Of a stretch of DNA of 51,882 nucleotides, positions 2,354 to 46,690 are shown one piece after another; the first letter of the stretch is position 1; the number at the start of each line of letters is the position of its first letter. Made by a program: the position numbers and the translations under genes. The stretch is from Trichodesmium erythraeum GBRTRLIN201 (lineage in GTDB: Bacteria > Cyanobacteriota > Cyanobacteriia > Cyanobacteriales > Microcoleaceae). Below the pieces are notes generated by a model. The model searched no databases, was not told the DNA's origin, and worked only from the letters and a program-made list of their open reading frames with translations. Where the stretch lies: positions 1-51,882 of the forward strand of contig JAGGDU010000041.1 of the NCBI GenBank assembly GCA_018457135.1. Direction: 5' to 3'.

Positions 2354-3631
2354 TCAGCTCTTTTGCCGCCAATCAGATATAACCTTTTCCAAATACCAAA
2401 TCCGAGCTCTACCCGGATATTTTTCCTCAACTTTTGCAATCAACCTTTCTGCGATTTCCCAATGCCCGCCAACCATTCTTAACAACTTTTGTTCCAATTG
2501 CTCATACTTAGTATCCTCATTAATATTCTGACTTTGAATAGGAACAGATGTCTGAATTTTCTTCAAATTATCCAAAGTTTTTTGATAATTATTCCAGTCT
2601 TCAGCATCCCCAAATAATTGAGCAGCATTCTGATAGTTATCTATAGCTTTTTTGATATCTTCTAAACAAGAATAAACAATACCCCGGTTATAAAAAGCCT
2701 TAGCTTCATTAGAATTAATTTGTAATGCTTGATCATAATCTTTAATTGCCTCTTGGTAAGCACCAATATCCCGATAAACATTCCCTCTATTCACATAAAT
2801 AACTGAATTATTTGGTTCAATATTTAAAGCCGCATTACAATCAGCGATCGCTCCTTTAAAATCACCTATTTGACCACGAACAATACCCCGATATTGATAA
2901 GCTAAAACACTTTGATTATTAAGTTGCAAAGCCTCATTAAAATCTGACATTGCCCCAAAATCATCCCCTTGTTTATAACGAATAATACCTCGAAAACAAT
3001 AAGCTTCATAATCATATTTATCAACTTTTAATGCCCAGTTTAAATCCGCCATTACCCCCTGGACATTCCCTTTTTCAAACCTGCTCAAAATTTCATTTAA
3101 AAAAGTCTTACTATCACCTTTTTTCCACTGAAAATTACCATCATTTTTTACAGAAGCAGGAACAAAATTTTGTAACTTTTTAATACTATCCAAACATTGC
3201 CGACAATTCACAGCATCCTTCTGTTCTAAATACAACTCTGCACCCCGTTTCAAACTAGCAATTGCATCTGCTTGATTACCTTGTTTATCATAAGCATTAC
3301 CCAATAACTTATATGCCGGAGCATACTTATCATCAATCCCAATTATCTGATGAGCATCCATAATAGTCCCAGCAATATTTCCTACTATTAACCTAGCAAT
3401 ACCACGACCAAAATAAGCATTAATATAATTAGAATTAATTGCCAAAGCCTCAGTATAATCTGCAATAGCTTCTTCCCAATTTCCTAAATCAAACTCTGCC
3501 AAACCTCTGCGATAATAAGCTTCAGCAAAACTAGGATTAATTTCTATAACTCGACTCAAATCTTGAATTGCTCCTTCATAGTCTCCAGCACAAGATTTTG
3601 CTACAGCCTGACTATATATTTCCTGTTCCAT
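2354..3631 (-). CDS. Tetratricopeptide repeat protein
   Basis: 425 residues from an ATG. The protein is almost entirely TPR units of 34 residues with the usual A..Y..RG......G....AI.D...A..I signature: at least four between about residues 1 and 140 and four more between about 195 and 350. A more variable linker (about 140-195, with a CRQCLDSIKKL segment) separates the two blocks. The last 70 residues are charged and end in a tryptophan-containing tail. There is no signal peptide or membrane segment, so it is probably a cytoplasmic scaffold for protein-protein contacts. The partner is unknown. A HIP1 octamer lies inside the gene at 2844-2851. It stands alone, with about 1 kb of non-coding DNA on either side. 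Confidence 0.85.
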   Translation of the reverse strand: MEQEIYSQAVAKSCAGDYEGAIQDLSRVIEINPSFAEAYYRRGLAEFDLGNWEEAIADYTEALAINSNYINAYFGRGIARLIVGNIAGTIMDAHQIIGIDDKYAPAYKLLGNAYDKQGNQADAIASLKRGAELYLEQKDAVNCRQCLDSIKKLQNFVPASVKNDGNFQWKKGDSKTFLNEILSRFEKGNVQGVMADLNWALKVDKYDYEAYCFRGIIRYKQGDDFGAMSDFNEALQLNNQSVLAYQYRGIVRGQIGDFKGAIADCNAALNIEPNNSVIYVNRGNVYRDIGAYQEAIKDYDQALQINSNEAKAFYNRGIVYSCLEDIKKAIDNYQNAAQLFGDAEDWNNYQKTLDNLKKIQTSVPIQSQNINEDTKYEQLEQKLLRMVGGHWEIAERLIAKVEEKYPGRARIWYLEKVISDWRQKS

Positions 3632-4699
3632 TTTTTTCTATTAAAGGTAAATTTAAATAAAAGTTTAACTAATTTCACTATCCCATTGTATGGCAGCTAT
3701 CTGCTATTTGCCAAACAACCTTCCCTTATTCCTTGCCCCTTTTATTATGCCCCTTCTCTTATTCTGTAGGCGATCGCCACTTAAACTTATCTATCAAATA
3801 GTGGGAAAACTTTTAAATTAATAAACCATTATCCAGGAAGCAATACTAAGCCATCACCAGAAAACCTACCGACCTCTGTATAAACTTTTTCTATTAATTC
3901 TCAGATTAATATGCTTTGAGTTTCTGAGCCAAAAACTCAGTATTCAGGAAAACCAAAATCTTGATATTTAACTATTTTAATAATCTAATATTTATCTCTT
4001 TGTAAATATCCAAAAAAAGCAATTTTAACAACCTAATAAAAGAAGAAAAATAGACAACAAAACACTATTTTTTTGTCAGAAATTTTGAATTTGTTATTCT
4101 CTGATAATAGTCAAATTCGGATAGTAATTTTTAGGTTTACCTCTCACCTTTAATTCCAAAATTTTGTAATATTTATTTTTACTTATAAGCTTCATAGTTA
4201 TGCATGGCTTTTAATCACTAGTTTTATATACTATATTTTGACCTGCACAATGTAAGATATAAATATCAGATAGGCTTTTTAAACTATAAAGCCGCAAAAA
4301 AAATTCCTAGGAACAAGAATCAAATATGATCCACAAACCTTGGCGCTTAAGCATTGCACAGAAATGCTCCTGTACAGAAAATCTAGAAGTTAATAAATTC
4401 TGATTCCTAAACTAAACTGTATTGGTTTAAAATATAGTTTATACAGCTATATTGAATCTAATTGTAACTTAATTTTATACACAAATGATGCTACCGGAGG
4501 GGAAATAAACCTTTAAAGACATTTGCTGATGCTTAGAAACTTTTTGTATAGCCATGCCTTTCCATTTTACTGATTAACCAACAAAATTAACGTCCTTACC
4601 TTTCAAACAAAAGTTTGGGCTACATTCGAGCTTAAAAGTTGTGTAAGTCCAGCCATTAGTAAACCTGAGTACAAAAAAAAATAACTACATTAGGTCTAA
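3632..4699. other. Intergenic, 1.07 kb, no gene seen
   Basis: AT-rich spacer with many short stops in all frames. A HIP1 octamer lies at 3770-3777. Poly-A/T tracts and scattered GGAG-like strings occur, but I see no tRNA, terminator of convincing strength or conserved frame. Confidence 0.6.
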
Positions 4700-5134
4700 C
4701 TAATCTTCCTCAATATACTCTGCTATATGAGGTAATTCTCCCATTTTAGCAGTAAGTAACTGGGGACCAGCAACCACAATTTTTGTTGCACCTTCCTCCA
4801 CAAGCTCAAACAAAAACTTATCTATTAACGGTCTTTCTATTATTTCCTGAGATTCTAATTCTACATCCTTTTCTTTTGCCTTACGTTTCACCCGTTTCAA
4901 AACATCACCAGCTAAAGCGCGATAACCTTCCAACATTGAGCTTTGTAATTTATGCAAAGGATTAGATCCCAACCAACCACTCTGCCCCAACTCACCAATA
5001 ATATCATGAATTGAGTTATTATTAATAAAAAATACAACCCTCAAATTACCTTGATGTTCTTGTGTTGCTGAAACTGCTTTCCACATTGCTTTATCATAAG
5101 CGTAAGGATTTGCAATTACTAACCAGATACTCAT
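4700..5134 (-). CDS. Universal stress protein-like (USP) domain protein, coupled to anion transporter
   Basis: 144 residues. The N-terminal strand (WLVIANPYAYDKAMWKAVSA), a middle helix and a C-terminal GATKIVVAGPQ strand fit the USP alpha/beta fold. The classic G-2x-G-9x-G(S/T) ATP-binding signature is not clear, so nucleotide binding is doubtful. The ATG lies 3 bases after the stop of the upstream SLC13 transporter gene. Its GGGGAG ribosome-binding site is inside that gene, which implies co-transcription and probably translational coupling. USP domains commonly sit next to or inside membrane transporters as regulatory modules, so this protein may modulate the transporter; that is inference. 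The C-terminus is acidic (EYIEED). Confidence 0.65.
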   Translation of the reverse strand: MSIWLVIANPYAYDKAMWKAVSATQEHQGNLRVVFFINNNSIHDIIGELGQSGWLGSNPLHKLQSSMLEGYRALAGDVLKRVKRKAKEKDVELESQEIIERPLIDKFLFELVEEGATKIVVAGPQLLTAKMGELPHIAEYIEED

Positions 5135-5137
5135 ATT

Positions 5138-6565
5138 TTACACTCCCCACCCAAATAAAGGCCAATAAAATTTCGCCATTGCCAAGAAGATCAAAGTTCC
5201 CACTAATTTTAGCAATAAGCCGCGCTTAAAAGCTTCAGCAGGCGACACATAACCACTACCCATAATAATAGCCATTACCGGAGTACTGACTGGTAAAAGA
5301 AAAGCTAAACCCGATGGTAGAGTAATACCCAACGTCATTGCCCTTGGGTCTATTCCATATTTAGCAGCCAAAGCAAGTCCCACTGGCATCAAAACAGCTA
5401 CTGCAGCAGCATTACTCATTCCCTCCGTCAAAAAAGTAATAATTAAAACCATTGCCACAAAACAAACAAAACCAGAATTTATCCATGACCCCAACAAATT
5501 TTCTGCCAATGCTTGTGCTGCCCCCGTATCCCTTAAAACTGCACTTAGAGCAATAGCACTACCATACATCAAAAAAATACCCCAGTTAACATCCTCTTCT
5601 ACCTCTTGCCAAGTTGCCAAACCACAAACGAAGCTACACATAACCCCAAAGAAAGCTATTGTATCCAGTCCCCAAGCTTTTCCCTTAAAAACCCATAATA
5701 AAACTATTCCCGTCACTAACGCTAATGTACCAATTTCCCTAGATGAAATTGTCCCAAGACTTTGCGATCTAACTTCAAGAAACTTTCGGGCACTAGATAA
5801 AGAAACTACTATACCTTTACCTATTTGTAATAGCACAAGATAAGCCACTATTAACATCAGCACAACTAAGGGAACAGACCAAAGAAACCACTCCACAAAA
5901 GTGATATCATATTCTCCTTTTGTTGTGCTGCGAAGTACTCCTAATGCTAGAGGAGCTCTTGCGCCCCCCAGTAAAGTAGCGATACCACCAATACCGCAAC
6001 CCCACCCCAAAGCCAAAAATGCTGCTAGACCAAAACGTCCACCAGACTTTGCACCTGCTGCTTGAACCACTTCTATGACCACTGGGAATAACATAGCTGT
6101 GACAGCATAGGAACTAATTACAAAAGACATCAAAGCTGAAAGAATTAAGATAGAGGCAATTAGAGTATTTTGGCTATTACCAAAACGGGAAACTACTGTG
6201 AGAGCCAGACGAGTGCTAAGTCCTGAACGTTGAATAGGGCTGGCTAGAATAAATGCTCCCAATACAAAGAATACTGCTTTATTGCCAAAATAGGCGTATG
6301 TGTCCGTAGCAGACATACTGCCACTTAGGGGAATTAAAAATAGTACCATCAAGCCTGTAACTGCTACTGGTAGAGTATTAGTTGCCCAGAGGAAGGCTGT
6401 GACTCCAAACACCGCTAAAGCTCCTTTTGCTTCTTTTTCGACTCCTGCCATTGGAAACAGAAGAATACCTAAATAAATTAGTGCTGCGGCTACAAACCAA
6501 AGCCAACGGTACTGAGGTTGACGAGATATGCGTAACCAAGTACGAAGATATTTGATATTTTCCAT
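5138..6565 (-). CDS. SLC13/DASS-family anion:sodium symporter
   Basis: 475 residues and about 11-12 hydrophobic segments, the usual size of divalent-anion sodium symporters. Family marks include ATNTLPVAVTGL near residue 60, VFFVLGAFILASPI near 100, GWGCGIGGIATLLGGARAP near 190 and the C-terminal SNAAAVAVLMPVG near 385. The C-terminal SN motif is present as SNA rather than SNT; the first SNT motif is replaced by SSYAVTAM. Members move dicarboxylates, citrate, phosphate or sulfate; the substrate cannot be read from sequence alone. The USP-like gene follows after 3 bases. An APS-kinase homologue starts 510 bp away on the other strand, which weakly suggests sulfate. The short N-terminus carries RISRQPQYRWLW before the first membrane helix. 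Confidence 0.85.
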   Translation of the reverse strand: MENIKYLRTWLRISRQPQYRWLWFVAAALIYLGILLFPMAGVEKEAKGALAVFGVTAFLWATNTLPVAVTGLMVLFLIPLSGSMSATDTYAYFGNKAVFFVLGAFILASPIQRSGLSTRLALTVVSRFGNSQNTLIASILILSALMSFVISSYAVTAMLFPVVIEVVQAAGAKSGGRFGLAAFLALGWGCGIGGIATLLGGARAPLALGVLRSTTKGEYDITFVEWFLWSVPLVVLMLIVAYLVLLQIGKGIVVSLSSARKFLEVRSQSLGTISSREIGTLALVTGIVLLWVFKGKAWGLDTIAFFGVMCSFVCGLATWQEVEEDVNWGIFLMYGSAIALSAVLRDTGAAQALAENLLGSWINSGFVCFVAMVLIITFLTEGMSNAAAVAVLMPVGLALAAKYGIDPRAMTLGITLPSGLAFLLPVSTPVMAIIMGSGYVSPAEAFKRGLLLKLVGTLIFLAMAKFYWPLFGWGV

Positions 6566-7075
6566 TGTATATGTATGAATAATTTTTGACGTAGAGATTT
6601 GATTATACTTTTTATAAAACTAGAGAACAGAAAAGAGGAAATGAAAAAATAAAAATCAAATTTTTCTTTCAAACTTTTACTCAAAGATTCAGATCATCTT
6701 TTGAGTTGACAACTACTTTGATCACTGATTTAGTATTTACATCTGAGAAAATTAGATTTTAATTATTATAAGCTAAGTATTAAATTTATCACATAAAACC
6801 TTTTTTTGTCAATCTATATAAATAGACTTTTCCAGAAAAGGTTCTCAAACCCTTATACTACTCTTTCCCAATTGATACTTTTGCCAAAGGTCTAATAGAG
6901 CCAGGACTTAAGTACCCAAACAATAAACTTGATTTATTGCCCTAGTTATTGTTTTTTTACTCTAGTTAATTAACCAATAAATATCCTGGATAAATCCTGT
7001 CTCTGCCGAAGTATTAATAACTTTAAATCTTTTTTTATCAGGATTTAAATTTTGTTTTTCAGAGGATGAATGTGA
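6566..7075. other. Divergent spacer between anion transporter and APS-kinase homologue
   Basis: 510 bp, AT-rich, expected to hold promoters for both flanking genes. An AGAGGA ribosome-binding site lies about 10 bases ahead of the plus-strand start at 7076. I see no clear operator palindrome or riboswitch-like structure. Confidence 0.5.
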
Positions 7076-7657
7076 ATGGAAAATAACAATCAAACTGGTG
7101 TAACAGTATGGTTTACTGGTTTAAGCTGTGCGGGCAAAACAACTCTCAGTTTTGCTATTGCAGAAGAATTGCAATCGCTCAATTACACAGTAGAAATTCT
7201 TGATAGTACTATTGTACGTCAAAACATTGGTAAAAGCTTGGGTTTTAATAAAGCTGATCGAGATGAAAATATCCGCAGAATTAGCTTTTTAGCCCATCTT
7301 TTAACTCGTAATCGTGTGATTGTTTTAGTATCTGCTATTTCTCCTTATAATCAAATTCGTTGTGAGGCTAAAAAACGCATTGGTAACTTTATTGAAGTAT
7401 ATGTTAATGCACCTCTAGAAATTTGTGAAGCCAGAGATAAAAAAGGACTTTACCAACTTGCTAGAGCTAAAAAAATTAAAGAATTTACTGGTATTGACTT
7501 ACCATATGAAGCACCACTTAATCCTGACGTTGAATGTCGCACTGACTTAGAAACAGTCGCAGAAAGTAAAGAAAAAGTTATCCTAAAAATGGTAAATTTA
7601 GGTTATTTAAAACCTCGGAATTTTTCCCATAGTAGTGCTTATTTTTTCGATATTTAG
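7076..7657 (+). CDS. APS kinase homologue with altered active-site motifs
   Basis: 193 residues, the normal length for stand-alone adenylylsulfate kinase, which makes PAPS from APS and ATP in the cytoplasm. Most family blocks are present: GVTVWFTGLS with a P-loop GLSCAGKTT at 15-23, GFNKADRDENIRRI at 56-69, LVSAISPY at 84-91, YVNAPLEICEARD at 109-121, KGLY, FTGIDLPYEAP at 137-147 and CRTDLET. Three well-conserved places differ from usual cyanobacterial CysC. The P-loop has Cys instead of Gly at 18. The LDGDxxR motif that binds APS and magnesium reads LDSTIVR (42-48). SPYR reads SPYN (92). Because the second Asp of DGD is important for catalysis in characterised APS kinases, activity may be reduced or changed. 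The gene is monocistronic and faces away from the SLC13 gene. It could be a paralogue of a normal cysC elsewhere. Confidence 0.8.
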   Translation: MENNNQTGVTVWFTGLSCAGKTTLSFAIAEELQSLNYTVEILDSTIVRQNIGKSLGFNKADRDENIRRISFLAHLLTRNRVIVLVSAISPYNQIRCEAKKRIGNFIEVYVNAPLEICEARDKKGLYQLARAKKIKEFTGIDLPYEAPLNPDVECRTDLETVAESKEKVILKMVNLGYLKPRNFSHSSAYFFDI

Positions 7658-7790
7658 AAGTTAAATTATATCCGGAATATTTCATTTCATAATACCAGAG
7701 TAGGGGGTTGCCCCTACCAGATTTTAGTTATGACATTGTTTTGAGTTTTTATTCTCTAAAATAGTTAAAAATTAATCCGATAAATTTGAA

Positions 7791-8939
7791 TCAAGTATTC
7801 TGATACAATTTAATTCTTAATCTTTTTAATTCTGTCTCCAATAGCTGATTTTGAGATTTTAATAACCCCAATTCTGCTTGAGAATCATATAGCCTACTTC
7901 GTAACTTTTCTAATTCTGACTCAACAGTTTGAAGCTGAGGTTTTAAAACATTCAGTTCATCCTGAGACTCCATTGCTATAGGTCGCAGTTTTACTAATTC
8001 CTCCTCAAATTGTAAGAGTTGATATTTTAATCTTTCTATCTCATATTCTTCTGGATTAATTTCTATTTTATCTTGATTATAAACATGATTAACTACTTCT
8101 CCTGTAATTATATTCTTAACTTCCTTGAAATGAACTCTACATAAAAATGGGTCAGATAGCAAAGGAATATAATACATACAATCAGAAAAATAATAATGTG
8201 TCACCTGACTATATCTAGTCCTATTTTTATCTAAAACTGGACTACCTCCATGAAGTAAATTTGCTGCCCAAATTAAAGCTTGACCTTTCTTAACATAAAG
8301 TTCTACTTTTTTTAAACCATTGTATTCAATTAATGACTGTAAAAACTCTTCATATACAGGATAAATATCATAAGGTTTATTCTGATAACTACCTGTAATT
8401 CCTAAATCATTTAAATCAAAAATTGGTAATTTATGACTCCCAGGATAATAATGCAGCGGACCATTATTAGCATCTATATCTTCCAAAGCCACCCAAACTC
8501 CACACATAAATCTAGCTGGAACTGAACTAAAATGTATGCTATCACTATGAGTAGATTGTTCAGTACCAAACCTGAAATTTAGAGTTTGAAAAGGGATTGG
8601 TTCTCGCTGATAAAGTATTTTTAATAGATTAATAATATGGGGAGCCGTAGCAATTTTTTTAACATCTTGATTAAAAGTCCAAGCATCTTGAATTCTATCA
8701 TTATAAATCCAAGCTGATTTTACTTTCCCTTTTTCTCCATATATGGGAGTTAAATCTTTAACTATGCGATCTACAATTTCTGAAATATTTTCTATACCTA
8801 AGTCATCTATAATTACATATCCTTGTTCTGCAAATTGTTTGACAATTTCTCTAGTATAATTGTCTAAATTTAACTGATTGAAAATTTGTTCAAAAAAAGG
8901 AGAATCTACCCAAGGCAAATTCATTTCAGGAATAGTCAT
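7791..8939 (-). CDS. PhyH-family Fe(II)/2-oxoglutarate dioxygenase with C-terminal coiled coil
   Basis: 382 residues. Residues about 30-285 are a phytanoyl-CoA dioxygenase (PhyH) type double-stranded beta-helix. The iron ligands are visible as H131-S-D133 (STHSDSIHF) and H230 (LLHGGSPV), with R240/R242 placed to bind 2-oxoglutarate. ALEDIDANNGPLHYYPGSHK at 151-170 is the family's typical loop. Residues about 298-380 form a Leu/Glu/Lys-rich heptad coiled coil with internal repetition (LRSRLYDSQAEL, LKRLRIKLYQ). Bacterial PhyH enzymes hydroxylate varied small molecules and halogen or sugar substrates, so the substrate here is unknown. The coiled-coil tail probably drives oligomerisation. No biosynthetic neighbours are seen. 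Confidence 0.85.
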   Translation of the reverse strand: MTIPEMNLPWVDSPFFEQIFNQLNLDNYTREIVKQFAEQGYVIIDDLGIENISEIVDRIVKDLTPIYGEKGKVKSAWIYNDRIQDAWTFNQDVKKIATAPHIINLLKILYQREPIPFQTLNFRFGTEQSTHSDSIHFSSVPARFMCGVWVALEDIDANNGPLHYYPGSHKLPIFDLNDLGITGSYQNKPYDIYPVYEEFLQSLIEYNGLKKVELYVKKGQALIWAANLLHGGSPVLDKNRTRYSQVTHYYFSDCMYYIPLLSDPFLCRVHFKEVKNIITGEVVNHVYNQDKIEINPEEYEIERLKYQLLQFEEELVKLRPIAMESQDELNVLKPQLQTVESELEKLRSRLYDSQAELGLLKSQNQLLETELKRLRIKLYQNT

Positions 8940-9671
8940 TTTTCTATATTTTGTTTAGCTCAATTATTTATTAATAATAGAACGTCAGCAGCAAGCTATC
9001 AATAGAGTTATTGTTAAATAGAGATAAAAAATAACTTCAACCTAGACATAGCAATAATTTCAAATTTTTTCCTTATCAATAACTACAATCTTTACAGAAC
9101 AAACTTTTTAGTTATGTTTTAAGTAATAAAGCGACAAGTATAATAATTAACTTACAGTATATTCCACGCGTTATCAAGTAGAAATATTAACAATCAAACT
9201 TTTGTAGTGCTAGCATCATGCTAGGGACAGCATTACCTCAAGTTTAATCAAATGTTTTGTATTCTCAGATATGCTTTAACAGAGAAATAAAAGTTAAATT
9301 ACTAATCTTAGCTATGCCAAAATCAGGCTTGTTCTATCACCCAAACCCTTACTTAGCAAAACCTATCACTCAAAAAAAAAAGAAGAACCTCTCACACTTG
9401 GCGTATTTAATATTATATCATGTTCGAGTCATCAGTAATCAAAAAAAAATTCTGGTGATCAGTGCTAACTCTATCCTACTGCTGATATCCACAAAACCTC
9501 CTGCCTTAACTCCTCCAAAACGTAAGTATATAATATTGATCAAATCCCCTGGCAATAGAAGCATTAGAAGAAACCGGGTTTATAGGAGAATGCTAGTCAG
9601 TATGGTAGGAAATCTAATACAAACCCCGTTTCTGTTTCAGTATTTTTAGGCTCTAGCTTCAGCTATCGGTA
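8940..9671. other. Intergenic, about 0.73 kb, no confident gene
   Basis: AT-rich spacer. A 130-codon plus-strand frame at 9257-9649 begins with a TTG-like start, is rich in Lys/Ile/Leu with no recognisable domain, and lacks a ribosome-binding site. I treat it as chance. The 3' end leads into a heptanucleotide repeat cluster. Confidence 0.5.
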
Positions 9672-9692
9672 CTGATAACTAATAACTGAAAT
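9672..9692. repeat. Heptanucleotide tandem repeat (STRR), CTGATAA type
   Basis: Three 7-bp units: CTGATAA, CTAATAA, CTGAAAT. The preceding bases (CAGTATTT, then GCTCTAGCTTCA, then CGGTA) resemble those before the clusters at 10943 and 24980, so the repeat is part of a larger dispersed element. Confidence 0.7.
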
Positions 9693-9694
9693 AA

Positions 9695-10813
9695 CTATTC
9701 TTCAATTTGCCATAAGTCTTTAATAAGCTCTTCATCAAGAATCTTTTTAGGTCTTAAGATTAACAAAGCTCGTCCAAGCAACGGTACATTAGGCTCCTCA
9801 TCAAACCACTGCATGATTATTTTACCCCCTTGGTCTACAATAAAATAACCATCTTTATTCCATTGACGTTGACTTCTATCTATAATCAATAAAACTTCCT
9901 CAGTAGCACCTGGTATAGGAGTAGGCAAGCGATCGCTATTTTCAATTATCGCCACTGGATCAACCGCATGGATGACAACTTGCCATCCAGGTATCGCTAC
10001 CCAAGCACCTGCTCCACCAGAAAATTTAACCATTCTAAATGGTTCGACTTCTTCCACAAGAGGTACTGCCTTAAAATCTTCTGTCTTCAGCGGTAATTTT
10101 CCGATCACAGGTAAAATGCGAGGTAAATCTTCTTCTAACTCTAGTCGATAAACTGGCAGACGGGGAGCAGGTCTTTGAGAAACAACAGTAAAATCAGTTA
10201 ATAGTTCTTCAAGCTGTTTTCTAGCTGTTTGAGAATCCACCAATTTTAGACCTTTAGCAATCAGACGAGACCTATGTTGTAGCTCGCTTTGTTGCCTAGC
10301 TTGTTTCCAACATTGATACCCTACTATATCTCCAGGAGAATCAGAAAATCCTTCTGGTATTGTTTTCATCTGAGCAAAATCTTTGATCGCTTTTACTACA
10401 TCTTTGACATCATCAACATCAAGATCGTGAGCAACTATAAACTCACTTGCAATGATTCTTTGTTCCTGACTTAAAACCCTCAACTCGTAAAGAATATCAC
10501 TACCTGTTCTCTCAAAGCGTGATAAAATATCAGCTTTGCTTAGTTTGAGAACATTTTTTTTAATGTCAGCATTGACAAGACTTGCATATACTTGAGACCC
10601 GACTATCACCTGATTTTGGTGTATCGGTTCAAACCCTGTTTCCTCAAAAATGTTCTGAGAAGTATATCCAGCTTTTTGTAGAGCAGCACAAGCGTTTCCC
10701 CATTCTACCCAACTACCTTCTTTGCGACGCAGCAAACCAATTAAGTTTTCTGGATCTACTAGATTTGTTAATTGTTGTTCCTGGTTAGGTGAGTTTTGTG
10801 GTGTTTCAGTCAT
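9695..10813 (-). CDS. raf1: Rubisco accumulation factor 1 (Raf1)
   Basis: 372 residues, the usual length of cyanobacterial Raf1, a cytoplasmic chaperone that acts after chaperonin to bring Rubisco large subunits together before small subunits replace it. The N-terminal helical domain carries LIGLLRRKEGSWVEWGNACA and LQKAGYTSQNIFEETGFEPI (residues about 23-65), which are diagnostic. A helical middle region and hinge lead to the C-terminal beta-sandwich dimerisation domain (about 215-355), with PVYRLELEEDLPRILPV and FSGGAGAWVAIPGWQVV. The ATG start is backed by a short acidic, Gln-rich leader typical of the family. A HIP1 octamer lies at 9929-9936. The gene is monocistronic, flanked on both sides by STRR-bearing spacers. 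Confidence 0.92.
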   Translation of the reverse strand: MTETPQNSPNQEQQLTNLVDPENLIGLLRRKEGSWVEWGNACAALQKAGYTSQNIFEETGFEPIHQNQVIVGSQVYASLVNADIKKNVLKLSKADILSRFERTGSDILYELRVLSQEQRIIASEFIVAHDLDVDDVKDVVKAIKDFAQMKTIPEGFSDSPGDIVGYQCWKQARQQSELQHRSRLIAKGLKLVDSQTARKQLEELLTDFTVVSQRPAPRLPVYRLELEEDLPRILPVIGKLPLKTEDFKAVPLVEEVEPFRMVKFSGGAGAWVAIPGWQVVIHAVDPVAIIENSDRLPTPIPGATEEVLLIIDRSQRQWNKDGYFIVDQGGKIIMQWFDEEPNVPLLGRALLILRPKKILDEELIKDLWQIEE

Positions 10814-27766: not shown

Positions 27767-27927
27767 TTGTGATTTACTTGTTCATATATTTGTTTACGAG
27801 ATTTAAGATTTTATATTTTTATATTTTTTGAGATTCTGAAATATTTTAGTAATCTCTTTGTATTATAGATTAGTATCAAGTATATTCCACATCATAAAGT
27901 TAGATTTAATTGATGGAAAACTTTGAA

Positions 27928-28638
27928 ATGAAGAAATTACTGAATAGCTTAATCATTGGCACTATTGCTTTAGGTATTGGCCAACCAGCTAGAGCGATTA
28001 GCATTTTCTATGGCGAAGATTTGGGGGCTGGCGGTAGTTTTGTGCCTAATGGCAATGCCGTTCAGGCCCAGAATGATTTTCTGAGTCAACTGTCTGGTAT
28101 CAGTACCGAAGATTTTGAAAATTTCATAGCAAAAGATACCGGTCCCCTTGACCTCATCTTTACAGGTAGTGCCGGTACAATTAAAGGTACTTTGACTTCG
28201 ACAGGTAGTGGTCTTGTGAGAAACCGTAGTTATTCCGGGTCTTTTCCCACCTCTGGTAATCAGTTTTGGGCGACTACTAGTCAATTCTCAATCAATTTTG
28301 ATAAGCCTATAGTCGCTTTTGGCTTCTTCTTTAGCGATTTTGAGCAAAATCCTCTTACCCTGGAACTAGGTCTAGTCGAAGGTGGCACTCAAGACATTTC
28401 GACTTCTGCAACAGTCCCAGCATCTAATGGAGCTCTTGCTTATTTTGGGCTCATCAATATGGATAATCCTTTTACTAGCGCAACCTTTGTTGGGGCAACA
28501 AAACGTGAGCTATATGGCTTTGATGATTTAACAGTTAGTGATTTAAAACCAGCTAAGACTGTACCTGAGCCTTCAACTGTTCTAGGCATATTTATGGCAT
28601 TAGGCTTAGGTGCATTATTCCAGAAGAAAGAAGCCTAG
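27928..28638 (+). CDS. PEP-CTERM sorted exported protein
   Basis: 236 residues from the ATG at 27928 (MKKLLNSLIIG). A frame start five codons earlier at 27913 is also possible. Residues 1-23 form a Sec signal peptide ending QPARA. The C-terminus has VPEPSTVLGIFMALGLGALF then KKEA: the PEP motif, a membrane helix and a basic tail, the signal recognised by exosortase. The middle (about 80-190) is a Gly/Ser/Thr-rich beta domain with GSAGTIKGTLTSTG and PIVAFGFFFSDFEQNP, like cyanobacterial PEP-CTERM proteins of unknown role. It is probably surface-attached or released after cleavage. No exosortase gene is nearby. Confidence 0.85.
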   Translation: MKKLLNSLIIGTIALGIGQPARAISIFYGEDLGAGGSFVPNGNAVQAQNDFLSQLSGISTEDFENFIAKDTGPLDLIFTGSAGTIKGTLTSTGSGLVRNRSYSGSFPTSGNQFWATTSQFSINFDKPIVAFGFFFSDFEQNPLTLELGLVEGGTQDISTSATVPASNGALAYFGLINMDNPFTSATFVGATKRELYGFDDLTVSDLKPAKTVPEPSTVLGIFMALGLGALFQKKEA

Positions 28639-39061: not shown

Positions 39062-39976
39062 TTAATTATATTGTTTTTCTAAATTTCTGGAAATTAGTTC
39101 TAACAAAAGTAAACCTGCTACAGAATTTCCTTGTTGATCGAGGGGAGGACTATAGCAAACAATTACTCCTTTAGCAGGAACTAATCCTAAAACAATTCCA
39201 CTGATACTAGATTTAATTGGAATTCCTATATCCATAGCATAACGATTTGATGTTTCATATAAACCACAATTAGTCATCAGTGTTTTAACTGTAAAACAGT
39301 GTTTTTGCCATTCAGAATGAGGTGAGTTTACTAATAAAATTCCTAGATTAGCTATATCAATAATTTTACCAGATAAACAACAGATTTGATTGTAAGTATC
39401 TAAAGTAATTTTAGCATCTTTTATAGAACCAGATTCTACTAATTTTTGAGCTATATTTTGATTATTCTGGTTAGGTAAAGAACGAACCGAAGCCAACATA
39501 TTTTCATCTAAAAATAATTGACAATTTCCGTAACTATTTAGCCAAGAACAAAAATTATTGCACTTTTCTCTAGCAGTATTTCCTGGTATTAAGGATGATA
39601 AAGCGATCGCTCCACTATTAATCATAGGATTTCTCGGCCATCCCCCATCAAATTCTAGTTGTTCTAAAGAATTGAATGGCTTTTCTGAAGGTTTTTGACC
39701 GACTTTTTTAAAGATCAATTCATTGCCAAATTGAGATAATAAATAAAATAACAAAAATGGTTTTATTGCACTCATCAAAGGAACTTTAGTTTTGATATCT
39801 CCGAATGAAATGATATGATGATCAATACTTTGTAAAAGTATGGCAAAACTGTTAGGGTTAGCTTCTGCAAGTAAAGGAATATAGTTAGGCAAATTGCCAG
39901 ATTTAGTTTGAGTTAATACTTGTTTGACCCAAGTATTTAGTTGTTGTTGATTAATGTTTGATAAATTTTTAAACAT
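39062..39976 (-). CDS. Glutaminase, divergent
   Basis: 304 residues, the length of bacterial glutaminases (serine beta-lactamase-like fold), which release ammonia from glutamine. The SxxK catalytic pair is S69 and K72 (MSAIK, normally SISK). KPSEKPFNSLEQLE (95-108) and GWPRNPMINSGAIA (112-125) are strong matches, and YNQICCLS supplies the conserved Tyr. The C-terminal glycine-rich loop, usually VPAKSGVGGGI, reads IPIKSSISGIVLGLVP, and SPPLDQQGNSVAGL follows. The catalytic frame is kept, but the loop has lost most of its glycines, so altered kinetics are possible. A HIP1 octamer lies at 39603-39610. Confidence 0.85.
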   Translation of the reverse strand: MFKNLSNINQQQLNTWVKQVLTQTKSGNLPNYIPLLAEANPNSFAILLQSIDHHIISFGDIKTKVPLMSAIKPFLLFYLLSQFGNELIFKKVGQKPSEKPFNSLEQLEFDGGWPRNPMINSGAIALSSLIPGNTAREKCNNFCSWLNSYGNCQLFLDENMLASVRSLPNQNNQNIAQKLVESGSIKDAKITLDTYNQICCLSGKIIDIANLGILLVNSPHSEWQKHCFTVKTLMTNCGLYETSNRYAMDIGIPIKSSISGIVLGLVPAKGVIVCYSPPLDQQGNSVAGLLLLELISRNLEKQYN

Positions 39977-40341: not shown

Positions 40342-41022
40342 ATGAAAAAGTTAATTGTAATTACAGGGATAAGTCGAGGCTTAGGTAGAGCGATAACCGA
40401 AGAATTTATTAATTTAGGCCATACTGTTATTGGTTGCGCTCGTTCTAAATCTGCTGTGGAAAATTTAACTCATAAATATTCTAATTCACATCAGTTTAGT
40501 TGTGTGAATGTAGCAGATGAAAATAATGTGCAAGAGTGGGCAAAGTATACACTGGCTAATTATTCAGCGCCAGATTTATTAATAAATAATGCAGCTATAA
40601 TTAATCAACCTGCACCTCTTTGGAAAGTTGATAGTGAGGAATTTTCCCAATTAATTGATATTAATATTAAAGGTGTGGTAAATGTGATACGTTATTTTGT
40701 GCCAGCTATGATTTCTAGGGGAAGTGGTATTATTGTTAATATTAGTTCTGGGTGGGGACGTTCCAGTTCTCCACAAGTAGGGCCTTATTGTGCTTCTAAG
40801 TGGGCTATTGAAGGTTTGACTGGTGCTTTATCTCAGGAGTTACCGAACCCAATAGCTGCTATTGCTCTTAACCCAGGAATTATTCATACTGATATGTTAG
40901 ATATTTGTTTTGGAGAGGATGCAAAATCTTTTACTTCTGTTAAATCTTGGACAAAAAAAGCTGTTCCTTTTTTATTAAATCTAAAGCCAGAGGATAACGG
41001 AATACCTTTAACTATATCTTAA
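40342..41022 (+). CDS. Short-chain dehydrogenase/reductase
   Basis: 226 residues. Classical SDR fold with a cofactor motif TGISRGLGRAI at 8-18, NNAA near 85, and a catalytic triad of Ser (VNISSGWGR, about 134), Tyr and Lys (YCASK, about 149-153). NPGIIHTDM follows. The Arg following the Gly-rich motif and CARSK in strand 2 suggest NADP(H), which is inference. The substrate is unknown. Shorter than the usual 250 residues at the C-terminus. The tRNA-Leu gene lies convergently 29 bp after its stop. Confidence 0.87.
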   Translation: MKKLIVITGISRGLGRAITEEFINLGHTVIGCARSKSAVENLTHKYSNSHQFSCVNVADENNVQEWAKYTLANYSAPDLLINNAAIINQPAPLWKVDSEEFSQLIDINIKGVVNVIRYFVPAMISRGSGIIVNISSGWGRSSSPQVGPYCASKWAIEGLTGALSQELPNPIAAIALNPGIIHTDMLDICFGEDAKSFTSVKSWTKKAVPFLLNLKPEDNGIPLTIS

Positions 41023-41050
41023 AGACTAATATCTATAATCTTCTTAAAAG

Positions 41051-41132
41051 TGCGGATGAAGGGACTTGAACCCCCACTTCCGAAAAAACTAGAACCTAAA
41101 TCTAGCGCGTCTACCAATTCCGCCACATCCGC
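41051..41132 (-). tRNA. tRNA-Leu (anticodon UAG)
   Basis: 82-nt cloverleaf on the minus strand. The acceptor stem is GCGGATG/CATCCGC, the D-arm contains AATTGGTAGAC, the anticodon loop TTTAGGT gives UAG, the long variable arm is typical of a class II leucine tRNA, and the T-arm contains GGTTCAAGTCC. The discriminator base is A, and the 3' CCA is not encoded. Confidence 0.97.
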
Positions 41133-41320
41133 ATAATTTAAATATAACACACAAATCAAATTTTTTGACATTTACTTCTAGTTTTTTTTTTATTTTATCT
41201 AGTAGTGGCCATGACTGCTAGGAAATTCGAGATCCTCTCAAATTTAGTTTCTGGGATCTAGGGATTTTTATGATGAGTTTTTACTAGTGGGGGGTGAATG
41301 GGAGGGTTTAACTTATGATT

Positions 41321-44300
41321 TCATGGGATAACTTTTTTTCCCTGTAAAAAATAAGTTTTCATGTATCCCTTACCTTTAATATGAATAAGTCCCCGTTCTG
41401 TAAACAAAAATTTGTGTTTTAATATCTGATAAGTTGCCTCTGTGACTTGAATAACTCCTGGTATACCTTGAGATTCCATACGACTAGCAATATTTACAGT
41501 ATCACCCCATAGATCATATATAAATTTTTTACGTCCGATAACACCAGCCACGACTGGACCAGTATTAATACCAATACGGATTAGAAAATCTTGTTTACTT
41601 TTATGAGCAAAATGGGCTAATTCTTCCCGCATATCTATAGCTATGAGAGCGATCGCCTCAGCATGATTTTCCATTGGTGTAGGCAACCCACCCACAACCA
41701 TATAAGCATCCCCAATAGTCTTAATTTTTTCCAAACCATACTTTTCTGCTAATAAATCAAACTTCGAAAAAATCTCATTTAACCAATAAACTAATCTCTT
41801 TGGATAAACAGAACTTGCTAACTGAGTAAACCCAACTAAATCTGCAAATAAAACTGTAACTTCGTCAAATCCTTCTGCGATTATATCTTGATTTTCTTTC
41901 AATTTATCAGCAATAGGTTTAGGGAGAATATTTAGTAATAATTTCTCTGACTTTCCCTGTTCTAAAAGTAAAGCTTGTTCTACTTTTTTTCTTTCAGTTA
42001 TATCACGACAAAGAGCTAAAACTAAATTACCATTGCCTGCTTTTAAGAGGCCGAGACGTACCTCTACTGGAAAAGTTGTCCCATCTTTACGTTTATGAGT
42101 TCCTTGTAAAGTTATAGGTATACCAGGAATGAGTTTTTGCCACTTTTGATAAAGATATTCTAAGACAAAATTTATCTCAATATCTTCTATAAAAAGATGC
42201 AATAATTCTTCGTAAGTATATCCTAAAGTTTGACAGGTACTTTGATTGACATCAACAATTTTTCCTTGCAAATCATGAATAATAAAAGCATCTGCAGCTT
42301 GTTCCATAACAGCTCTAAATTTTTCCTCGCTTTCTCGTAAAGCTTTTTCTGCTAGTTTCCGCTCAGTAATATCTCTAATGGCGCTTACTCTATGTTGATA
42401 ACTACAATAAAAGAATGTTTTAGCTTGTATTTCTATAGGAAAGGTAGAGTTATCTTTTCTAATTCCAACTACTTCATAGGGTTTTTCATATCCAGAACTC
42501 ATATTTTTCCATACTAAATTTTTATATTTGGAGTCAATTAACTCTAACCCGTTCATGCCAATTATTTCTGATAATTCATACTTAAACATTTGAAGAGCTG
42601 CTGTGTTTGCATCTACAATTTTTCCTTGTTCATAAATAATAATCCCCTCAAAAGTTGCTGTAGATAAACTCCGAAATCTTTGTTCATTTTCTTTGAGTTT
42701 TGCCTCTGATTCTTTCCTTTCAGAAATATCTCTAAAAGTGCCAGTATAGAAATTTTTTTGATTTAATTTAGCTTCCCTAACAGCAATTTCTATAGGAAAT
42801 AAAGAACCATCTTTACGAATACCAACTAACTCGTAAAGATTTCCAGTTTCAGCAATTAACGATATCAGTCTTTCTATGTAATATTTTTTTTGAGTAATTT
42901 TTTTTTCAGTCTCTAACTCTATTTGAGTATCTGCTGAATTTTTATCGAATAAATGAATAAAATTCGGAAAATAAGATTGTAAATTTTCAGGTTTAATATC
43001 CTGAAAATTAAATGTATAATAAGCATTGATAATTTCTCTAGTGGGAAAGGAGATAAAACTTGGGTTAACCCATAACTTTAATGCTTCTACTGTTGACTTT
43101 TTTCCTTCGGTGATTAAATCATTACTATCTATTTTTTCCCTCATTAATGGATTAATAGTAAAATCAAGTATTTCATAAATAGGCATTCCCACTAAATCTT
43201 GAGGTTTGTAGGAAAAAATTTTCTCGGCACTAGGATTTACACTAATAATTTCTAGTTCTGATTTATTAAAAGTAATAATTGCATCTGTAGCGAGTTTAAT
43301 AATGGCATCATTTCTGGTAGTAACTTCCTCTAAAGTATCCATAACATGATTATATCTTTCAGCAATTTGACCAACTAAAGTGAAAGGTTCTACAGGCACT
43401 CTTAAAGTTAAATCTTGGGTACTAGCTTGAGAACTCATAATTTCAAATAAATCTAATATTTCCGTTTTTGCATGGTGTTCAGAAATATTTAAACCGATAT
43501 GTTCATCTTCTGTAGAAACTCGCAATAAAAAAAACTTATTTGTAATTAATAAAATTGGGTATACAACAAAAAAACCTAATAGGAAAGCTGTACAAACTCC
43601 TAATAATTGAACTGTTAATTGTTCACTTAAGCTAAGACCAGTACCTAATATTTCTGGTTTTCCAAATAAAGCTACTGCTAAAGTTCCCCAAATACCTGCA
43701 CCGAGATGAACTGGAATAGCTCCGACAGCATCATCCACACGAATTTTCTCTAAAATTTGCTCTACTAAAATAGTGACTATGCCACCAATAAAACCAATAA
43801 TTACAGCAGAAAGAGTTGTAACTGCATGACAACTTGCTGTAATGGCAACTAGGCCTCCTAAAGTTCCATTAATGATTAAGTCAACACCAGGAATACCTCT
43901 AATAGACCAACCAATGCTAAGACCAGTTATCATTCCTGCTACACTGGAAAAGATTGTATTAACTATAATGCCTGGTACTTGTTCATTTAATGCTAGGGTA
44001 CTTCCACCATTAAACCCAAACCAACCAAACCAAATTAGCATTACTCCTAAAATTGATAGGGGTAAGTTGGAACCATGAATTTTTTCTGGTGGGCGATCGC
44101 GAGGAAATCTACCAGTACGAGGCCCAATGACCAATAAAGTTGCTAAAGAAACCCAGCCACCAATACTATGAACAACGGTTGAACCTGCAAAGTCAATAAA
44201 ACCACGTTGTCCCAGCCAACCTCTTAATACACCTGTATCAATTCCATTCCAGGCCCAATGACCAAATATAGGATAAATAAAACCTGAAACTAGGAAAGCA

Positions 44301-44950
44301 ACGAATAGATAGGTACCAAATTTCATCCGTTCGGCTACGGCACCTGAAACAATAGTTGTAGCTGTGCCACAGAACATAACCTGGAATAAAAAGAAGGCCG
44401 CATCAAGGGGTTGCACATTAGTTGCGAAGAAGAAATTGCTATGGCCAATTATTCCAGAAGCAGAAGTCCCAAACATAAAAGCAAAGCCAATACTCCAAAA
44501 GCAAAAAACTGAAATACCAAAATCTGTTAAGTTTTTAAAGGCAACGTTAATGTTATTTTTTGATCGGGTAAGTCCAGATTCTAAACACATAAATCCAGGC
44601 TGCATTAAAAATACTAATCCAGAGGAAATCAAAAGCCATAAAATATCAGTTACTTTGTATGTAGAATGAGGTTTTGACGTTGATAGATTTTTATATACAG
44701 GTAAGTCTTTTTTATTAATAACAGTTTGAAGATGATCAAACTTTTGGGGTTTGATAAAATCTTCTTCTGAAGATTGATAGAAGTTATATTGTTCTTTTTC
44801 TAACTCAGAAGTTTGCCATGTTTTAACTTCTTTTATTTGATTTGATAGTTGGTAATCATTTGTGTTTTTACTGATTACTGACCCATGTAAAATAGTTAAT
44901 GTCAAGGTCAGTAAGAATAAAATAAATCCTAAAATACATTTTCGACCCAT
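41321..44950 (-). CDS. Ammonium transporter fused to three PAS domains and an adenylyl cyclase
   Basis: 1209 residues, one uninterrupted frame from an ATG. A membrane or signal helix (about 5-22) and a variable region precede a complete Amt/Rh channel at about 102-475. The channel keeps its twin histidines H261 (DFAGSTVVHSIGG) and H415 (DDAVGAIPVHLGAG), GHWAWNG and FGWFGFNGGST. A linker follows (about 476-545), then PAS/PAC units at about 545-746 (with a 100-residue insertion), 755-865 and 874-988, each ending RDI(S/T)ERK. A class III cyclase fills about 1010-1205, with metal Asp D1037 (FADLVGF) and D1081 (IGDAY), adenine-selecting K1077 and D1146, and transition-state N1153 and R1157. This residue set predicts cAMP rather than cGMP. 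The design implies that ammonium passage or binding, plus PAS input, controls cAMP formation. No glnK/glnB neighbour and no obvious NtcA site were seen. HIP1 octamers lie at 41649 and 44093. Confidence 0.93.
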   Translation of the reverse strand: MGRKCILGFILFLLTLTLTILHGSVISKNTNDYQLSNQIKEVKTWQTSELEKEQYNFYQSSEEDFIKPQKFDHLQTVINKKDLPVYKNLSTSKPHSTYKVTDILWLLISSGLVFLMQPGFMCLESGLTRSKNNINVAFKNLTDFGISVFCFWSIGFAFMFGTSASGIIGHSNFFFATNVQPLDAAFFLFQVMFCGTATTIVSGAVAERMKFGTYLFVAFLVSGFIYPIFGHWAWNGIDTGVLRGWLGQRGFIDFAGSTVVHSIGGWVSLATLLVIGPRTGRFPRDRPPEKIHGSNLPLSILGVMLIWFGWFGFNGGSTLALNEQVPGIIVNTIFSSVAGMITGLSIGWSIRGIPGVDLIINGTLGGLVAITASCHAVTTLSAVIIGFIGGIVTILVEQILEKIRVDDAVGAIPVHLGAGIWGTLAVALFGKPEILGTGLSLSEQLTVQLLGVCTAFLLGFFVVYPILLITNKFFLLRVSTEDEHIGLNISEHHAKTEILDLFEIMSSQASTQDLTLRVPVEPFTLVGQIAERYNHVMDTLEEVTTRNDAIIKLATDAIITFNKSELEIISVNPSAEKIFSYKPQDLVGMPIYEILDFTINPLMREKIDSNDLITEGKKSTVEALKLWVNPSFISFPTREIINAYYTFNFQDIKPENLQSYFPNFIHLFDKNSADTQIELETEKKITQKKYYIERLISLIAETGNLYELVGIRKDGSLFPIEIAVREAKLNQKNFYTGTFRDISERKESEAKLKENEQRFRSLSTATFEGIIIYEQGKIVDANTAALQMFKYELSEIIGMNGLELIDSKYKNLVWKNMSSGYEKPYEVVGIRKDNSTFPIEIQAKTFFYCSYQHRVSAIRDITERKLAEKALRESEEKFRAVMEQAADAFIIHDLQGKIVDVNQSTCQTLGYTYEELLHLFIEDIEINFVLEYLYQKWQKLIPGIPITLQGTHKRKDGTTFPVEVRLGLLKAGNGNLVLALCRDITERKKVEQALLLEQGKSEKLLLNILPKPIADKLKENQDIIAEGFDEVTVLFADLVGFTQLASSVYPKRLVYWLNEIFSKFDLLAEKYGLEKIKTIGDAYMVVGGLPTPMENHAEAIALIAIDMREELAHFAHKSKQDFLIRIGINTGPVVAGVIGRKKFIYDLWGDTVNIASRMESQGIPGVIQVTEATYQILKHKFLFTERGLIHIKGKGYMKTYFLQGKKVIP

Positions 44951-45000
44951 GGATTTTGGTCTTATACCTTAATTTAGTGACTTTTGTACTAATTATTTAG

Positions 45001-45028
45001 CCATTAGTTATTAGCTATTAGTTTATAA
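45001..45028. repeat. Heptanucleotide tandem repeat (STRR), xxATTAG type
   Basis: CCATTAG, TTATTAG, CTATTAG and the variant TTTATAA follow one another at 7-bp spacing, 50 bp ahead of the Amt-cyclase start codon and probably inside its leader or promoter. Confidence 0.7.
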
Positions 45029-45504
45029 TATAAGTATAAGTAAAAATAAAGTATTGAGAATTAGGATTGAGAGACATCTAAAAAATTCAAATTAGAAGAT
45101 CAAACAATAAAAAAACTTGAACTTATATAATTCCGAAAAACCCTATTATTCAAGTCAATACAGAGGATAATTTTTAACTTTATTCAAAAGTAACTGAAAA
45201 ATTGGGTTGAAAGCTTCCCTCGCTCATGGGACAGTTTTTTAGGGTTTTTTTTGAAGACATCTGTTGTAATTAGATATTGTTAATCCCACGCCGGGAGGTA
45301 GTCCGAGACAAAAATCGGGTGCATACCCCAAGGGTAAACCAGGTAACTGAAACCTTTAGTTCTGGGATCAGTTTTAGTTAGTTCTGGCTGATTAATTCTC
45401 AAAGCATTGACACAAATAATGCTCACAGCCAAATTTTGCACGAGCACAAAAAGCTCTAGAAGTTAAGTTCTAGTGCATGAATAGGATTTTGGGCATACCG
45501 GCAG

Positions 45505-45569
45505 CATAAAAATCAGGGGACAATTCTTGCTACTACTTTCCTGGTAACCAAGCCATTTATCTGTGCTGA
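45505..45569 (+). repeat. Dispersed repeat of about 65 bp, copy 2
   Basis: Partner of 25898-25960: shared ATAAAAATCAGGGGA, AATTCTT and TTTATCTGT in the same order and spacing. Confidence 0.5.
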
Positions 45570-45889
45570 CCTGCTGAAACTGACCTGCAATAACCTTCAC
45601 CCTATTAGACAATAGATGTGCTAACCTTGGTTAAGGCAAAGTTTTGGGTCAGCAACACCTCTACTAATTCTTGGGCTTAAGATCACAAAAACCCCCCCAC
45701 GGCTAATAGCCGGAGAGGATATTAATTGGCTGATATTTAAAGAATTAAAAATTTCTACAAATCAATCTATCAGCAATGTTTAGATTCGCTAATTGCTGTT
45801 GACAAAGTTGACATGTTTTTGCTTAAATTATATTCTAGTTAAATATAAATTCTCAGACAGTATAAACTTTAACTTAGTTAAATTTGCTG

Positions 45890-46690
45890 TTACTTCTGAT
45901 TGAAAGCTTTCCAAGTTTTTTGATCAACTATCCCATCAGCTTTAATTCCTTTAGATTTTTGAAATTCTTTCACTGCTCCCGTAGTTTTGCTACCAAATAT
46001 TCCATCAATTGGACCAGGATTAAACCCCATTGTTCCTAGACCAATTTGTAAGGTTTTGACTTTGGAGCCTCTGTCTCCTTTGGCTAATATCTTCTCTACT
46101 TTGACTACTTGTTTTTGCTTTAGGGTTGGTATTTTTGCTATTTGAATAGGTGGACGAGAAGAAAATGAGGGTTTAGCTAGGGAGGTCCAGGTAAGTTCAT
46201 CAACTATACCTGTGACAGTTAAACCCACAGACTCTTGAAAAGCTTTTACTGCTTTTGTGGTACGAGCACCAAATATACTATCTACAGCACCAGGGTTAAA
46301 ACCTCTAGCTTGCAAACGTCTCTGTACTGCCCAGACTTCTGCACCTCGCGAACCCTGTGATATTTTCTTTTGATTTTCTCGTTTTTGGGGAGAGCCCGAA
46401 TAATAAGGTTTAGAGAATAGTTCAGGTTGAGCAGGTTTAGTAAAAAACCTAGAATTTCTTGGAGTAAAAGGTATCAGAAAACTTTTATTTTTCTGTTTTT
46501 GTTCCTGCTTACTTTTGATTTTATCTGGTTGACTAAAGATAGAATTATCGGAGTTTAATTGGGGTGTTAAGCTTTCTTCTTTTTCTGCTGTCACAGATTC
46601 TGTTTTATCAGACGCAATTGCCCTGTTGGAAGTCAAGCTAAACAGCGTAACTAAACTTAATAGAGTAGTAATAGTAGGTAAGCGCATCAT
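45890..46690 (-). CDS. Exported protein with two peptidoglycan-binding domains
   Basis: 266 residues from the ATG at 46690; the frame extends 23 codons further to a TTG, but only the ATG places a signal peptide at the N-terminus (MMRLPTITTLLSLVTLFSL ... RAIA). A low-complexity Lys/Gln/Ser linker follows (about 28-108). Two PG_binding_1 domains lie at about 111-173 (GSRGAEVWAVQRRLQARGF, VDSIFGARTTKAV) and 203-263 (GDRGSKVKTLQIGLGTMGF, IDGIFGSKTTGAV). No catalytic domain is present, so it probably binds cell-wall glycan in the periplasm and may act as an adaptor. It is monocistronic. Confidence 0.85.
   Translation of the reverse strand: MMRLPTITTLLSLVTLFSLTSNRAIASDKTESVTAEKEESLTPQLNSDNSIFSQPDKIKSKQEQKQKNKSFLIPFTPRNSRFFTKPAQPELFSKPYYSGSPQKRENQKKISQGSRGAEVWAVQRRLQARGFNPGAVDSIFGARTTKAVKAFQESVGLTVTGIVDELTWTSLAKPSFSSRPPIQIAKIPTLKQKQVVKVEKILAKGDRGSKVKTLQIGLGTMGFNPGPIDGIFGSKTTGAVKEFQKSKGIKADGIVDQKTWKAFNQK

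Follow-up and report, generated by a model that had tools for sequence, protein, structure and literature searches.

The stretch of DNA analysed here (the window) comprises the 51,882 nucleotides of contig JAGGDU010000041.1 from Trichodesmium erythraeum GBRTRLIN201. Its minus strand carries, at 41321-44950, a single and intact open frame of 1209 amino acids (aa) from ATG, inside which the sole plus-strand frame of at least 100 aa is 101 aa long. The gene joins an ammonium transporter (Amt) domain to a class III cyclase in one polypeptide, and judging from its sequence the product is probably an ammonium receptor in the membrane whose output is an adenylyl cyclase. Pfam matches far above the curated cut-offs identify Ammonium_transp (residues 104-495, 398 bits), PAS_9 (four stretches, 134.5 bits) and Guanylate_cyc (residues 1025-1204, 217 bits). 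Because the first PAS domain (PAS1) is split by an insertion of ~80-90 aa near 600-690, the four PAS_9 stretches correspond to three PAS domains. A preliminary description of this DNA had proposed one open frame with an Amt domain, three PAS units and a cyclase: that architecture is borne out by the frame, the Pfam stretches and the alignment, on a strand that the description had left unnamed, and the PAS1 insertion is present but shorter than the 100 residues given. The features are as follows:

41321..44950, minus strand: whole gene, 1209 aa, sensor-Amt / HAMP-like / three PAS / class III cyclase (open frame, Pfam, orthologues)
44654..44950, minus strand: residues 1-99, hydrophobic N-terminus (by eye resembling a signal peptide or membrane segment) and variable extension (sequence; 54-61% identity to four orthologues)
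43466..44641, minus strand: residues 104-495, sensor-type Amt domain (Pfam, Foldseek, AlphaFold2 model)
44600..44602, minus strand: Q117, equivalent to Ks-Amt5 Q24, sensor-marking NH4+ site residue (residue comparison)
44522..44524, minus strand: D143, equivalent to Ks-Amt5 D50, sensor-marking NH4+ site residue (residue comparison)
43274..43462, minus strand: residues 497-559, HAMP-like linker (hhalign, AlphaFold2 topology)
42728..43270, minus strand: residues ~561-741, PAS1, split by the insertion (Pfam, orthologue alignment, model)
42881..43153, minus strand: residues ~600-690, variable insertion within PAS1 (absent or unlike in relatives; substitution rates)
42362..42646, minus strand: residues 769-863, PAS2 (Pfam)
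41999..42325, minus strand: residues 876-984, PAS3 (Pfam)
41924..41998, minus strand: residues ~985-1009, helix connecting PAS3 and cyclase (conserved in the orthologue alignment; helix in a low-confidence model)
41339..41878, minus strand: residues 1025-1204, class III cyclase catalytic domain (Pfam, six catalytic residues, PDB matches to adenylate cyclases)

An assembly artefact, or a fusion gene in decay, would find some support in related loci. We searched 59 genomes, the window's own included, and four contain the fusion in part (G002, G003, G006 and G007): G002 has both halves with a frame break between them, G006 has the cyclase end alone, as a cyclase-only frame, and G003 and G007 have the N-terminal part alone, which leaves their effector out of view. 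In G018 (L079), one copy of a tandem pair also has no cyclase in its frame. However, ten of the 59 genomes encode the fusion near full length (at least 1100 residues) in one frame, and further members occur in other families. Single-frame orthologues in other assemblies are 60-83% identical to the window protein, which excludes a chance fusion. The closest named relative among the matches listed is that of Trichodesmium sp. MAG_R02 (87% identity over 461 residues), and named members come from Trichodesmium, Okeania, a Microcoleaceae, Oscillatoriales, Phormidium pseudopriestleyi, Oscillatoria and Laspinema.

The ratio of nonsynonymous to synonymous substitution rates (dN/dS), obtained by a simple counting method for the window gene against each of four orthologues, also speaks against decay, with values for the whole gene (0.25-0.36) below 0.4 in every comparison. 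By part, the ratio is 0.18-0.28 (Amt), 0.20-0.46 (linker), 0.13-0.24 (PAS2-containing stretch), 0.24-0.45 (PAS3) and 0.15-0.25 (cyclase), and it is higher in the N-terminus (0.50-0.87) and the PAS1 insertion (597-695; 0.52-0.78). An assembly artefact is rejected for practical purposes, and we give artefact or decay together next to no credence. A tandem duplicate of the Amt-PAS-cyclase gene is found in Okeania sp. SIO3B5 (L039 in G018, 2589-10558), where the frame of the first copy stops short of the cyclase, with a detached cyclase piece after it.

The Amt domain and its ammonium site

Foldseek searches with the Amt part returned Sd-Amt1 (PDB codes 8qj3, 8qj4 and 8qpf) as the best matches, followed by Ks-Amt5 (6eu6), and both by sequence and by fold these two rank in this order ahead of any transporter in the PDB. 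They are also the solved sensor Amts that the PDB searches returned. The AlphaFold2 monomer model of residues 100-560 has a mean predicted local confidence (pLDDT) of 94.5. According to the available portion of its report, Ks-Amt5 has a two-ion NH4+ site formed by Q24, E31, N47, D50, T51, T109 and T112, which has no counterpart in assimilatory Amts (PMC5764959). Five of these seven residues are identical in the window protein (Q117, E124, N140, D143 and T199).

We compared these positions in three sets of sensor Amts, with 19 rows from a whole-protein search, 30 from a profile search of the phylum and 82 from a pattern search. The 131 rows represent 111 distinct sequences at 99.5% identity; pairs of sets have 8, 7 and 6 groups in common, and the 19- and 30-row sets share 8 genes. 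As plain Amts we took 33 frames from 31 loci of the phylum, which were the best-scoring matches. Q117, E124, N140 and D143 occur jointly in 19/19, 30/30 and 82/82 sensors and in 0/33 plain cyanobacterial Amts. Position 143 is D in the same 82/82, 30/30 and 19/19 sensors and V, L or A in 33/33 plain Amts. Position 117 is Q in 82/82, 30/30 and 19/19 sensors and N or T in 33/33 plain Amts, where the count for the 82-row set is biased because one of its two search patterns contained Q117, the 19- and 30-row sets not being pattern-selected. Q117, D143 and the effector-bearing 1209-aa frame distinguish the window Amt from a plain cyanobacterial one. On this residue comparison the Amt part belongs with the sensors (receptors) and has a predicted extra NH4+ site as in Ks-Amt5. 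The preliminary description was right about the domain; its label of ammonium channel is corrected to that of a sensor.

The pore motifs are kept: the histidines H261 and H415, which had been noted before, the gate F193/F313 and the filter W234/S317 are all present. The histidines, the gate and the filter W are invariant across the sensor rows, and only a few rows lack the filter S. This would suit a transceptor, whose Amt part conducts ammonium and controls the cyclase through flux or the state of the pore instead of through a binding site of its own. Among the pore-blocking residues of Ks-Amt5, F27 is kept (its place is also F in 23/33 plain Amts) and Y30 and F34 are both L, which leaves two of three positions without bulky aromatics and means that loss of transport cannot be inferred. 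On the other side, Q117 and D143 tell sensors apart from plain cyanobacterial Amts in every examined row, as would be expected of a dedicated site, and two other Amt genes in the 7.22-Mb genome could serve uptake. Ks-Amt5, moreover, is reported not to transport despite intact pore motifs (PMC5764959, in part). We regard a transceptor as unlikely, though worth keeping in mind, and favour a receptor with its own ammonium site.

Two Amt genes in unusually long frames (G043:C1:3826872-3828071, 745 aa, and G116:C1:253593-254792, 640 aa) lie outside the sensor-profile matches at the threshold used.

Linker, PAS domains and cyclase

The 19 aligned sensors, whose outputs differ, are strongly conserved in the stretch that follows the Amt. 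A linker profile built from 66 of the 82 rows was compared by hhalign with 11 HAMP segments of the same genome and scored 94.2% over 30 columns, which cover the connector and the second helix; among the controls, eight profiles with shuffled columns, the profile in reverse and nine Amt segments stayed at or below 0.51%, and a tenth Amt segment, which overlaps the linker, gave 25.6%. The AlphaFold2 monomer model predicts a matching topology, with a helix at 497-511, a connector and a helix at 525-559. By profile comparison and model, the linker at 497-559 is HAMP-like, and it recurs whatever effector follows. In L027, a stretch past the aligned linker scores 26.9 bits to HAMP.

The preliminary description had named this linker and the PAS1 insertion as candidate signal-transfer parts. 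The linker keeps that role, since a HAMP-like module common to the family would be expected to matter for signal transfer. The insertion as a general signal-transfer part is rejected: it is missing in L081, L082, L084 and L085, L086 and G042/L038 have unlike sequence at its place, and it is weakly constrained.

The cyclase domain contains D1037, D1081, K1077, D1146, N1153 and R1157, in agreement with the metal, adenine and transition-state residues first described, and all six are present in the 12/12 PAS-cyclase members checked (the window and 11 relatives). From class III cyclases we take D1037 and D1081 to bind metal, K1077 and D1146 to bind adenine, and N1153 and R1157 to stabilise the transition state. 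With roles so assumed, the Lys-Asp pair is of the adenine type and argues for cyclic AMP (cAMP) rather than cGMP as the product.

Many further cyclase proteins in related genomes share ~42-54% identity with PAS3 plus the cyclase. Such cyanobacterial PAS-cyclases resemble the window protein in this part and differ in having neither an Amt nor the sensor-Amt linker. Their frequency in the same genomes, and the two or three PAS domains that precede the cyclase throughout the PAS-cyclase clade, would be in keeping with an Amt that serves mainly as a membrane anchor while the PAS domains sense the real signal, be it redox, light or a small ligand. However, some members of the family carry the effector directly after the linker, such as the histidine kinase-receiver protein L026 and the HisKA_2 kinases L101, L108 and L111, which makes PAS optional in the family, and the Amt is more strongly constrained than PAS1. 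A mere anchor is, in our view, improbable, and the Amt is favoured as the sensory part.

Relatives with other outputs

The 82-row set consists of the window protein and 81 rows from 80 loci, these being the best 80 of 546 relatives among the 585 pattern matches listed; the 80 loci span seven named phyla. By hand labels, the rows divide into PP2C-type SpoIIE (17), PAS-kinase (16), PAS-cyclase (12), HisKA_2 kinase (7), GGDEF-EAL (7), kinase-receiver (7), kinase-receiver-cyclase (5), Hpt-ATPase (4) and kinase-receiver-AAA (2), with no effector seen or the protein cut off in 5. Pfam scans of the C-termini agree with the hand label in every HisKA_2, kinase-receiver-cyclase, Hpt-ATPase and kinase-receiver-AAA row and in 6/7 GGDEF-EAL rows, the seventh (L139) being backed by a solved relative; most other effector labels rest on a phmmer panel and motifs. 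The 12 PAS-cyclase rows include the window and both L079 tandem copies, one of which has no cyclase in its frame.

In a quick tree, the PAS-cyclase rows form one clade (support of 94 in the Shimodaira-Hasegawa-like approximate likelihood ratio test), and the kinase-receiver-cyclase rows lie elsewhere, past a branch with support 97. Cyclase versus non-cyclase output needs three changes on this tree, with no direction implied. The second adenine residue is D in 12/12 PAS-cyclase members and T in 5/5 kinase-receiver-cyclase members. At E <= 1e-150, a sensor Amt is present in 29 of 386 sampled genomes of the phylum; two of the 29 have the PAS-cyclase form (G000, G042) and three the kinase-receiver-cyclase form (G087, G098, G181).

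Several variants deserve mention in their own right. A separate design of Amt / histidine kinase / receiver / cyclase, with another class III subtype, is seen in L110, L130, L133, L135, L154, L202, L203 and L204; it resembles CyaC-like cyclases. SpoIIE/PP2C phosphatases follow sensor Amts in L015, L083, L087-L089, L091, L093, L094, L096, L098, L100, L105 and others, frequently among the filamentous cyanobacteria of the set, and an ammonium-regulated phosphatase would be unusual. In L129 and L131, an AAA_35 ATPase domain follows Amt / kinase / receiver, and in L122, L134, L141 and L144 (Spirochaetota and one other bacterium) Hpt and HATPase domains follow the sensor Amt in CheA-like order. Sensor-type Amts that end ~80-160 aa past the aligned part occur in L027, L028, L065-L067, L071-L073, L075, L137 and L146; the phmmer panel found no effector in them, nor did Pfam scans of L027, L028, L137 and L146. 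These are possibly receptors with separate partners.

Among solved structures, the nearest precedent is Sd-Amt1 from Shewanella denitrificans, whose PDB entries are titled 'Receptor Sd-Amt1', in OFF and ON state. Besides being the best match by sequence and fold, it has the same Q/E/N/D site residues, a linker alignable with that of the window protein up to its residue 448, and a nucleotide second-messenger synthase next. That synthase is a GGDEF domain (462-628, 57.7 bits), from which its product would be cyclic di-GMP, whereas the window protein has a class III adenylyl cyclase; in addition, Sd-Amt1 has no room for PAS between linker and GGDEF. The open-access papers searched yielded none on Sd-Amt1. 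Ks-Amt5 of Kuenenia stuttgartiensis is likewise a sensor Amt fused to a signalling enzyme, with the site likeness given above, but its output is a histidine kinase and, in the part of its report available, it is described as lacking PAS and HAMP linkers (PMC5764959). The preliminary description had rightly cited such an Amt-histidine kinase as known; Sd-Amt1 shows that it is not the sole kind of fusion.

In fungi, the cyclase is a protein separate from Mep2. Fungal Mep2 transceptors, as the available portions of the sources describe them, are also Amt-family proteins that report ammonium into the protein kinase A pathway, and the difference is that the window protein has sensor and cyclase in one polypeptide. 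Fusions of Amt with other domains had been described by Tremblay and Hallenbeck in 2009, as cited in the accessible part of PMC5764959. Among the open-access papers listed we recognised none on an Amt-adenylyl cyclase fusion, a scope that most subscription papers fall outside. Amt-signalling-enzyme fusions are thus already published, and what may be new here is the adenylyl cyclase output, unless the 2009 review mentions it.

Taken as a family, these proteins look like plug-in bacterial ammonium receptors, in which a near-invariant Amt sensor and a HAMP-like adaptor, spread over seven named phyla of the set, would be joined to kinases, kinase-receivers, Hpt-ATPase, PP2C, GGDEF-EAL, AAA-ATPases and adenylyl cyclases, the last of these apparently on two separate occasions. 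Within the PAS-cyclase branch, ammonium from outside would directly set cAMP in nitrogen fixers of the Trichodesmium group, in parallel to PII, with a trimeric receptor driving a dimeric enzyme through the HAMP-like converter. We lean slightly towards this broader account.

A proposed route from ammonium to cyclic AMP

The preliminary description had proposed a direct ammonium-to-cAMP sensor in a diazotroph, and we retain this as a proposal, given the sensor-type Amt and a nifH-type match in the genome (441 bits). Outside ammonium would pass the Amt selectivity filter and bind at the in-membrane acidic site (Q117, E124, N140, D143 and T199), upon which the Amt trimer would change shape. The HAMP-like linker could turn this change into helix movement, which the PAS domains and the connecting helix would pass on to the cyclase, perhaps adding a second, cytoplasmic signal. 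The messenger would be made when two cyclase domains pair. Ammonium would set cAMP synthesis, in either direction, and CRP-like proteins of the cell may read the cAMP. Ks-Amt5 phosphorylation is described as going up at low ammonium and down at high (PMC5764959, in part).

Several observations weigh against a receptor of this kind. Class III cyclases are active as dimers. Amts are stated to be strictly trimeric (PMC5764959, in part). Trimeric Amt and dimeric cyclase would thus differ in symmetry. In the Amt, besides the leucines at two pore-blocking positions, the choice of best-scoring plain Amts and the bias in the Q count, E124, N140 and T199 are present in 23/33 plain Amts too, which leaves Q117 and D143 as lone discriminators, and Ks-Amt5 T51 and T112 are F144 and S202 here (by alignment, Sd-Amt1 likewise has F and S at these places). 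For the linker, the Pfam HAMP (PF00672) cut-off of 25 bits is reached by 0/6 linkers tested, three of which score 12.7-16.4 bits, and that of the window gives no match, so that we call it HAMP-like only. The 36-residue start of PAS1 before the insertion has a dN/dS of 0.42-0.93, indicating weak constraint, and the full-length fold model, built with 10 sequences, has a pLDDT of 50.4 and was used for the rough PAS strands and helix alone.

The genome has one PII gene, so the preliminary description's phrase 'without a PII protein' does not stand; at most, the route may not need PII. There are ten cNMP-binding matches in the genome, nine above the cut-off and some CRP-like by eye. In Anabaena, according to the available part of one report, cAMP rises under nitrogen starvation, and a CRP that binds it acts on nifB (PMC4284465). 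A nifH-type match above 400 bits is present in 11/14 genomes with the whole or partial fusion versus 16/45 others. Kinship confounds this comparison, and in G042 the fusion occurs where no such match is seen: a link of the fusion to nitrogen fixation is suggestive only.

The surroundings of the gene point to no partner, because the neighbour genes are conserved among the Trichodesmium, Okeania and MO_207 loci only and are different in L081, L082, L085 and L086. The NtcA-type box is GTAN8TAC. Nine such boxes lie in the window, no more than chance (mean 10.2), and none between 44951 and 45889; promoter-like sites in 40900-46000 number 11, fewer than in shuffles (19.7). Next but one to the receptor gene is a glutaminase gene (39062-39976, minus strand, 267 bits), at a place conserved in six Okeania-group loci. 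Glutaminase releases ammonia. The two genes form no operon, because an opposite-strand gene and a tRNA-Leu lie between them. Elsewhere in the window, 27910-28638 encodes a putative secreted protein with a PEP-CTERM-like tail (by eye).

If true, a receptor binding ammonium on the outside and producing cAMP on the inside would give the nitrogen fixers of the Trichodesmium/Okeania group a direct ammonium input to cAMP, a connection not found in the available portions of reviews on cyanobacterial second messengers. It would also make a mechanical question testable, namely how a strictly trimeric sensor drives an enzyme active as a dimer, for which nature provides relatives that exchange the output while retaining sensor and linker.

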